In this document: positions 42,973 through 44,490 of the stretch, piece after piece
How the letters are laid out: each line of letters begins with the position of its first letter
Numbering within the stretch: the first letter of the stretch is position 1
Origin: Holophagaceae bacterium
GTDB lineage: Bacteria > Acidobacteriota > Holophagae > Holophagales > Holophagaceae
Direction of reading: 5' to 3'
Assembly: GCA_021286765.1 (NCBI GenBank)
Contig: JAJTBS010000001.1
Location: forward strand, 992,001-1,056,000
DNA length: 64,000 bases
Position numbers and translations under genes: made by a program
Notes under the pieces: model-generated
What the model was told of the DNA's origin: nothing
Databases searched by the model: none
What the model saw: only the letters and a program-made list of their open reading frames with translations

Positions 42973-44283
42973 ATGACCGACCTATCCGCCCTCTATTCCG
43001 CGCACATCGCCGAGCGGCAGCGCACCACCGCCGAGGCCCTGGCCCAGACCGGGTTCGAGGCCCTGGTCATCTCCAGTGGCAAGGCCTACACCCACTTCGC
43101 CGATGACCAGGAAGCCCCCTTCCACCCCACGCCCCACTTCGCCCACTGGTGCCCGGTGGCCGGGCCCCACCATGTCCTCGTGATCCGCCCCGGCCGGCGG
43201 CCGAAGCTGATCCGGTTCGCCCCCGAAGACTTCTGGTACGAGCAGGCGCCCCTGGGGAACCCCTTCTGGGCCCTGGAATTCGATCTCGAAGAGGCCGGCA
43301 ACCTTGACGAAGTCTGGAGCCGGGTGGGCACCCTGAGCCATGCCGCTTACATCGGCCCCGAGACGGATCGGGCCGAGACCGCCGGGCTTGAGCTGAACCC
43401 CGCCCCGCTCACCGCCCATCTCGACTGGCACCGCACCACGAAATCGGCCTATGAGGTCCAGTGCATCGAGGAGGCCACCGTGCTGGCCGCCAAGGGCCAC
43501 GACGCCGCCCGGACCGCCTTCCTGGCCGGTGCCAGCGAGCTGGAAATCCACCACGCCTACGTGCAGGCCGTGGGCATCGTGGATCATGAGATGCCCTACG
43601 GCAGCATCGTGGCTCTCAACGAAAAGGGCGCCATCCTCCACTACGAGGGCAAGCGCAAGGTGGGGAACGGCGCGGTGCTGCTCATCGATGCGGGTGCCCA
43701 GGTGCGCGGCTACGCCGCCGACATCACCCGCACTGTGGCCGCACCCCACTGCGACCGCCGCTTCGCGGCCCTCATCGCGGGCATGGAGAAGATCGAGCTG
43801 CAGCTCTGCGACATGGTGAAGCCGAAGATGCCCTACGGCGACCTCCACCACCAGGGCCACCTGCTCATCGCAGGCCTTCTGAAGGAGAGCGGCATCCTCC
43901 ACGCCACGCCCGAGGAGGCCGTCGAGAAGGGGCTCAGCCGGCCCTTCTTCCCCCATGGTCTGGGCCACCACCTGGGGATCCAGGTCCACGACGTGGCCGG
44001 CCGCCAGGGCACGCCGGATGGGACACCGGCCCCTCCGCCGCCCCAGCACCCCACGCTGCGTACGACCCGCGCCATCGACTCGGACCAGGTCTTCACGGTG
44101 GAGCCGGGGCTCTACTTCATCCCCATGCTGCTCCGCCCGTTCCGGGAGAACGAGCACAAGGCCAAGTTCGACTGGGCACTCATCGACGAGCTCACCCCCT
44201 GTGGCGGCATCCGCATCGAGGACAACCTGCTGGTGACGGCCAACGGCCATCGCAACCTCACCCGGCCGCATCTGCCCCTCTAA
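42973..44283 (+). CDS. pepQ: Xaa-Pro dipeptidase PepQ
   Basis: Metal-dependent cytoplasmic peptidase that splits X-Pro dipeptides. The 436-residue protein has the N-terminal creatinase-like domain, then pita-bread motifs: LLIDAGAQVRGYAADITRT (two Asp ligands), GLGHHLGIQVHD (His), TVEPGLYF and GGIRIEDN (Glu ligands). Size and TRAIDSDQVFTVEPGLYFIP match the E. coli PepQ subgroup. It lies 20 bp after mqnA, on the same strand. A degenerate copy of its last 23 codons is found 158 bp downstream. Confidence 0.93.
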   Translation: MTDLSALYSAHIAERQRTTAEALAQTGFEALVISSGKAYTHFADDQEAPFHPTPHFAHWCPVAGPHHVLVIRPGRRPKLIRFAPEDFWYEQAPLGNPFWALEFDLEEAGNLDEVWSRVGTLSHAAYIGPETDRAETAGLELNPAPLTAHLDWHRTTKSAYEVQCIEEATVLAAKGHDAARTAFLAGASELEIHHAYVQAVGIVDHEMPYGSIVALNEKGAILHYEGKRKVGNGAVLLIDAGAQVRGYAADITRTVAAPHCDRRFAALIAGMEKIELQLCDMVKPKMPYGDLHHQGHLLIAGLLKESGILHATPEEAVEKGLSRPFFPHGLGHHLGIQVHDVAGRQGTPDGTPAPPPPQHPTLRTTRAIDSDQVFTVEPGLYFIPMLLRPFRENEHKAKFDWALIDELTPCGGIRIEDNLLVTANGHRNLTRPHLPL

Positions 44284-44372
44284 GGGCGTTCGGATTCGGG
44301 CTACCCCCGATCGCCGTGCGCCCCATGCTGGGTGATCGATCAGCAGGCCGCCTCGCGGCGGGACCCCGCTGC

Positions 44373-44441
44373 GTCGAATTCAACCCACCGGCGACCTCCC
44401 AAGGGGACCGCAACCTCACAGGACCGCACCTGTCCCTCTGA
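44373..44441 (+). pseudogene. Remnant of a pepQ 3' end
   Basis: In the pepQ-dpp gap, a stretch reading VEFNPPATSQGDRNLTGP(HLSL stop) matches the end of PepQ, IEDNLLVTANGHRNLTRP(HLPL stop). 12 of 23 residues agree, and the reading frame, gap-free alignment and stop are in the same place; the DNA CGCAACCTCAC is identical. It is probably the tail of a lost tandem pepQ copy or a recombination scar. Confidence 0.6.
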
Positions 44442-44490
44442 GCCGGTCGGCAGCGGCTGGGCCGGGGCCCACAGAGGCCTCAAGATGCGA

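Follow-up and report, generated by a model that had tools for sequence, protein, structure and literature searches.

The pepQ gene in a 64,000-nt stretch of a Holophagaceae bacterium genome (hereafter the window) is followed by a second, degenerate copy of its own 3′ end, and we consider it probable that this second tail is the original pepQ end, displaced by a miniature site-specific mobile element that carried in a replacement. The gene (Xaa-Pro dipeptidase; Pfam PepQ_N and Peptidase_M24) lies intact at 42973–44283 on the forward strand, as do all window features described here, and a repeat search finds a 72-nt direct repeat at 44213–44284 and 44371–44442, with a spacing of 158 and 71% identity. 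The first-pass annotation of this DNA had noticed that the PepQ C-terminus recurs downstream with its stop in register, and this is borne out by the nucleotides, 50 of 71 being identical in register between 44213–44283 and 44371–44441, with the stops (TAA and TGA respectively) also in register. It had placed the duplicate at 44373–44441, where a tail is indeed present, but the repeat starts slightly earlier, at 44213 and 44371. Random sequence, raised there as a possible source of such matches, does not supply them: the local alignment score of 31 is reached in none of 2,000 dinucleotide shuffles (maximum 19), and the score of 29 between the pepQ tail and its own downstream region is reached by none of 4,934 other 151-bp stretches of the window (maximum 17). 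The view that the second tail descends from the pepQ end in a rearranged locus is upheld. Differences between the two tails are spread 7/5/9 over the codon positions, so that there is no clear sign of the second tail being kept as protein, and at 15 non-synonymous to 5 synonymous differences the orphan end has decayed.

Related genomes place a defined element between the two tails. Among 53 pepQ loci of relatives compared by tblastn, two matches (L003 and L009) extend about 157 bp beyond the gene; L003, L009 and L049 share the same second pepQ tail with a nearly identical stretch of ~77 nt directly before it, and in several relatives the second tail starts exactly at the end of this conserved element. 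In BLAST searches the L049 stretch matches 44 of the 47 genus genomes, often in multiple copies and often as pairs or triples 146–180 bp apart. A covariance model built from 27 copies (E 1e-3) identifies the structured repeat, ~75–88 nt long, in 60 of 77 genomes of the family (Geothrix relatives, Acidobacteriota; an order-level search gave the same 77 genomes), in 8 of its 11 genera and at up to 30 copies per genome. In the window's own genome we count four clear copies plus a weak fifth; two of the five lie in the window, at 31–111 downstream of recR and at 44296–44370 downstream of pepQ, the latter being the weaker (44 as against 80 bits).

We refer to this repeat as the scaffold. In a MAFFT alignment of 27 sequences it folds into four helices comprising 20 pairs, with 95.5% of the cells paired, changes on both sides in 14 of the 20 pairs, and a covariation score of 0.386 compared with 0.099 after shuffling; on each of the five measures used, 0 of 500 shuffles do as well, and the measures collapse when the 3′ partners are slid. 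The consensus starts with CnGGACTACCCCCC and ends with GGGGGCCCCGTT, with variants of both. Rfam reports only tRNA and no match to the element in the window at the gathering cut-off, and at eight element loci searched at E values up to 1 it gives a single weak match that lies elsewhere. We also note two weak scaffold-like matches at 2235–2375 of L135, back-to-back on opposite strands and with a variant end (GGAGCCTCC), which are perhaps a related subfamily.

The association of the scaffold with duplicated gene ends is general. The model gave 114 matches from 91 sources, of which 111 are distinct and 110 have readable flanks. Scoring a duplication where a downstream repeat starts within −6 to +3 of the scaffold end with a score of at least 17, we find a direct repeat beginning at the scaffold 3′ end in 93 of the 110 copies, as compared with 23 of 2,000 positions chosen at random within those loci. 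The direct repeats range from 21 to ~240 nt and the inserted units from ~150 to 320 bp, and what is duplicated is one end, 3′ or 5′, of the adjacent gene, or the 3′ end of a tRNA. The 83 first copies represent 29 host clusters, including miaB, recR, mutL, ftsK, rpsR, prfB, prfC and tRNA-Ala. Pfam named 19 of 20 submitted host proteins: RecR, a MiaB-type radical SAM protein, a RidA type, ribosomal S18, a mannose-6-phosphate isomerase type, a helicase, RF3 (prfC), FtsK, an XPB-like helicase, an alpha/beta hydrolase, MacB/FtsX, a glycosyltransferase, a glutaredoxin-like protein, superoxide dismutase, a phage-integrase-family recombinase, a prolyl oligopeptidase, YebC, MutL and a class I release factor (PCRF plus RF-1). 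The names miaB, prfB and xerC/D are our own reading of the Pfam domains; an 80-aa host fragment that we read as QueE had no Pfam match, and the host of cluster H19 we take, from its protein text, to be a thioesterase.

Wherever a cluster could be assigned a gene, the intact copy of that gene is found 5′ of the scaffold, either in sense, with its 3′ end duplicated, or in antisense, with its 5′ end duplicated (miaB, prfC), and in many host clusters the stop or start codon marks the end of the duplication, exactly or approximately. An ordinary target-site duplication was considered as the sole mechanism and rejected, because the gene body stands 5′ of the scaffold in the duplicated, gene-assigned clusters, while L146 and L157, in which it is apparently on the right of the scaffold, have no duplication. 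At ten miaB loci (L070, L110, L089, L084, L085, L128, L121, L107, L159 and L152) the antisense frame runs through the element without a stop and on into the orphan copy, such that an N-terminally extended MiaB is conceivable. One of the hosts in the window's own genome is a tRNA-Ala (L108), with the junction inside the tRNA; this copy (C4), at 1421–1643 of L108 and outside the window, lies downstream of tRNA-Ala(CGC), whose 3′ end is duplicated.

Directly 5′ of the scaffold is a sequence antisense to the host's own X/Y junction, X being the upstream gene sequence and Y the duplicated part. For example, the guide CCTGGGGCTGCTGGATGAA at miaB in L128 faces TTCAT/CTGGCAGCCCCAGG, and the guide ATGCGGATCT at pepQ in L003 faces GGATCC/GCAT, the slash marking the junction. 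Over the 29 clusters the guide duplex energy averages −23.8 kcal/mol with the cluster's own target and −19.2 kcal/mol with the others, and none of 20,000 permutations is as good. Given its own Y, the X part still adds to guide pairing (p = 5e-5), and a stem that closes on the orphan Y alone is therefore insufficient as an explanation. Because one scaffold is found at many housekeeping genes and a tRNA, it is apparently the guide, and not the scaffold, that determines the target.

The pepQ locus of the window can be read in these terms. The putative insertion point is the junction 44212/44213, with X extending up to 44212 and Y starting at 44213. The left copy of the gene end (44213–44283, stop TAA), which is the one in use, is read as the element-borne replacement from the repeat, the stop codons of relatives and the analogy with mutL described below. 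It is followed 3′ of the stop by a decayed guide region at 44284–44295, whose partial match to the guide of L009 and L063 (GCTGCGGATCCGGAC) is by itself at the level of chance, by a decayed scaffold at 44296–44370 (44.2 bits by the covariance model), and by the right copy at 44371–44441 (stop TGA), the orphan that the repeat and the relatives' stop codons suggest is the displaced original end. This copy of the element is decayed and probably no longer mobile.

Loci lacking the element bear on which of the two ends is native. At mutL, L193, L195 and L197 are empty sites: with the flanks joined, they align across X/Y, and such gaps as occur are small and lie further downstream. Left and right mutL copies differ at three sites, and at these the empty L193, L196 and L201 match the right copy at all three and the left at none; most of the remaining empty relatives show a mixture. 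Carriers G046 and G010, and in part G033, have the altered left end in common. At pepQ, the carrier L049 and the remnants L015–L017 have a TAG stop and then guide sequence, the L049 orphan ends in TGA, and the empty L007, L008 and L012 have TGA. The window follows suit, with TAA in the gene, TGA in the orphan, and TGA in its near empty relatives L004 and L005. From this stop-codon pattern, and by analogy with mutL, we take the second pepQ tail to be, most likely, the gene's original end and the end now in use to be that of the element. Guide-like remnants are also seen 3′ of pepQ in L015, L016, L017 and L021, with the scaffold start in L015, the scaffold itself having been lost.

The element turns over. 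On the pepQ tree the full element requires at least three gains or losses on well-supported branches; the groups were assigned partly by eye, the window being placed with the full elements on its covariance-model match and L017 and L021 with the remnants, although the pattern test had labelled all three 'none', and 15 distant rows were marked for exclusion ahead of tree building. Of 25 loci examined at the MacB-like gene, 12 carry an insertion at one shared junction: in 11 of these the right copy is full and in the twelfth (L233) it is decayed, the other 13 loci having no full right copy by the same test. Left and right are identical in four of the 11, three of these with species-specific residues; the other seven together show 24 synonymous differences to 1 non-synonymous, to which the decayed twelfth adds 10 to 3 (34 to 4 in total). 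This pattern is compatible with fresh local copying and with exchange between related strains alike. The MacB-like gene end also appears to be used at two junctions in different species (L218, L224 and L238, which belong to the 13, as compared with L214). Whether orphans are kept as protein is answered unevenly, with 60 synonymous to 50 non-synonymous differences in sense copies and 36 to 58 in antisense copies; these sums leave out L078, L088 and L134 (wrong frame or offset), and some rows are second copies of one array. Downstream of ridA, L077 and L127 have three tandem units of gene end plus element with a period of ~158 bp, the rightmost orphan of L127 being the most diverged. The scaffold alone can also insert, as in L126, where it sits in frame inside a gene that we take to be ORF6N-like and replaces 3 nt (CAT) of the empty site: the empty L244 and L249 read ATCTC-CAT-CATG and the carrier ATCTC-scaffold-CATG, with the same insertion also in L240.

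Comparison of the sequences themselves establishes the architecture, its recurrence at unrelated hosts, the covarying structure, the complementarity of guide and junction, the empty sites, and the agreement of the mutL right copy with the nearest empty relatives. The events that would have produced them can be set out as follows. An element would enter at the exact base junction X/Y inside the pepQ end, and the inserted unit would consist of a duplicate of the gene end, from Y to roughly the stop codon, then a short guide able to pair with X/Y, and finally the ~77-nt scaffold, the last base of which would be joined to the old Y. Because a gene end comes with the unit, the host gene would remain complete and its former end would survive as an orphan; and since an intact X/Y would persist after insertion, the element could re-enter at the same place, giving tandem arrays. 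The unit may move by recombination or strand transfer at X/Y, with the folded single strand of guide and scaffold most likely the recognized substrate, as in the IS200/IS605 and REP systems, the pairing of guide and target directing insertion, and the enzyme presumably supplied in trans.

Other origins for the second tail need to be weighed. The first-pass annotation proposed a tandem duplication of pepQ whose second copy was deleted except for its tail, and the in-register homology of that tail to the pepQ end is what such a deletion would leave. However, the tail starts exactly at the end of a dispersed element, and that element occurs with a duplication of the same type in 28 further host clusters, which makes the event a property of the element, not of pepQ. 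The relatives that might have kept two copies, a check suggested along with the proposal, do not do so, no second full pepQ being seen beside pepQ by tblastn at the 53 loci, and the only other pepQ match in the window's own genome is a 35%-identical M24 protein located elsewhere. Given the recurrence at unrelated genes we reject this explanation as scarcely credible. It is also unlikely that these are scars of larger integrative elements (prophages, integrative and conjugative elements [ICEs] or integrative and mobilizable elements [IMEs]) that have lost their interior, with the scaffold as a conserved piece of the attachment region. The choice of targets (a tRNA 3′ end; the ends of rpsR, prfC, ftsK, mutL and others) and the restoration of the gene end are typical of such elements (PMC5704250), but a single scaffold occurs at 29 host clusters in units of just ~150–320 bp, the guide is specific to each host, and among the copies and matches found there is none with cargo and none to a phage or plasmid.

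The strong conserved fold, together with the tandem arrays and their homogenised copies, could point instead to a non-mobile structured RNA, such as a terminator, 3′ untranslated region or attenuator, whose hairpins provoke replication slippage and so repeatedly duplicate the adjacent gene end. We give this little credence, in view of the many host genes, the occurrence in both gene orientations, the empty sites in relatives, the precise 3′ boundary and the in-frame insertion in the ORF6N-like gene. A guide complementary to the joined X/Y resembles an internal guide sequence, and several left and right pairs differ at synonymous sites alone; both would suit an intron or bypass element acting at the RNA level, in which the transcript would lose the segment between X/Y and the end of the scaffold and the right copy would also serve as gene end. 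Yet the left copy already completes the gene, the antisense hosts (miaB, prfC) place the scaffold on the wrong strand, and the orphan in the window has decayed as described above, and we regard such an element as very improbable.

Several observations weigh against a guide-directed mobile element, at pepQ or in general. The guide's own target is the single best of the 29 in only 6 of the 29 clusters; of 93 copies, with related ones counted separately, only 32 reach the null's 95% point; and the guide of the window's pepQ copy pairs at the level of chance. The host gene is insecure in five of the 29 clusters (H3, H8, H14, H25 and H29, the last of these being secure by its tRNA only). At mutL some more distant empty relatives (L206, L207 and L211) match the left copy better, and the near-synonymous-only differences at the MacB-like locus are not what one would expect if the orphan arose by local copying and then drifted freely. 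A partner enzyme is also missing among the candidates searched for: reverse transcriptase (PF00078) is encoded in 22 of the 77 family genomes, Y1 transposase (PF01797, TnpA_REP) in 13 and IS110 recombinase (PF02371) in 19, but none of the three is in the window's own genome or correlates with the element, and all are rejected as partners on these grounds. Searches of phages and plasmids revealed no element, two exact matches to viral contigs not being elements and the sole plasmid match covering 37% of the query, and neither a larger, autonomous version nor a cargo-bearing copy was met among the copies collected.

The proposed displacement of the pepQ end by a mobile unit has parallels in known systems. 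Tyrosine-integrase IMEs, ICEs and islands likewise insert site-specifically at tRNA 3′ ends and at the 3′, more rarely 5′, ends of housekeeping genes. Their direct repeat keeps the target gene whole (PMC5704250), and both the exact position and the preservation of the gene by a direct repeat are shared by 93 of our 110 copies. In contrast to them, the unit here is ~150–320 bp and gene-free, with one scaffold for some 29 targets and a guide that is antisense to the junction. It encodes no tyrosine or serine recombinase of its own, for which it is too short, a tyrosine recombinase gene appearing solely as a host; for this reason we do not claim membership of the gene-end integrative elements. 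In IS200/IS605, the site of cleavage is chosen by a guide tetranucleotide 5′ of a palindrome, and an element with an altered tetranucleotide is redirected to another target (PMC8266576). Small structured repeats with a short guide 5′ of a hairpin are common to REP/RAYT, IS200/IS605 and the present family, but here the guide varies by host and gene ends are duplicated, and Y1 transposase is absent from the window's own genome and from 64 of the 77 family genomes; moreover, REP has GTAG 5′ of a single hairpin, whereas here the consensus opens with CnGGACTACCCCCCGATCG and four helices make up the fold. Rickettsia palindromic elements, which are ~150 bp or less and able to sit in frame inside coding genes (PMC10969869), and miniature inverted-repeat transposable elements are similarly short, non-coding, multicopy structured repeats, and the in-frame L126 case is reminiscent of them, but ours lie mostly at gene ends, duplicate them, and have a guide. 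The bridge RNA of IS110 is a structured RNA that sets its target via programmable loops (PMC11208160 and PMC11208158), unlike the contiguous junction-spanning guide here, which accompanies gene-end duplication without a recombinase gene, in a genome that lacks IS110. The retroelements (group II introns, diversity-generating retroelements, retrons) differ in that the window's own genome has no reverse transcriptase. We found no published description of the element in the open-licence PMC literature, and tentatively raise the possibility that it represents an undescribed class of mobile element, in which a conserved folded scaffold is combined with a host-specific guide that sets the site, and the end of whichever essential gene or tRNA is entered would be regenerated, letting the element persist in many housekeeping genes at low cost.

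The window opens inside its second copy of the element. The recR end, recognized through the orthologue L067 and cut by the window start, occupies 1–17 (stop TAG at 15–17) and is the left copy; the guide GCCGATGGGG at 17–26, identical in L067, L068 and L071, is complementary to CC/CCATCGGC; the scaffold lies at 31–111 (80 bits by the covariance model); and the right copy, an orphan recR end, at 112–191 (locus L058).

If this interpretation is correct, miniature elements would enter essential bacterial genes harmlessly by bringing the gene end along, and would constitute a natural retargetable insertion system of less than 350 bp, in which targeting resides in a few base pairs beside a fixed scaffold. 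It would also explain the orphan gene ends in the Geothrix-related family, and would mean that the annotated ends of mutL, miaB, pepQ and other genes in these bacteria can be element-borne and not ancestral.
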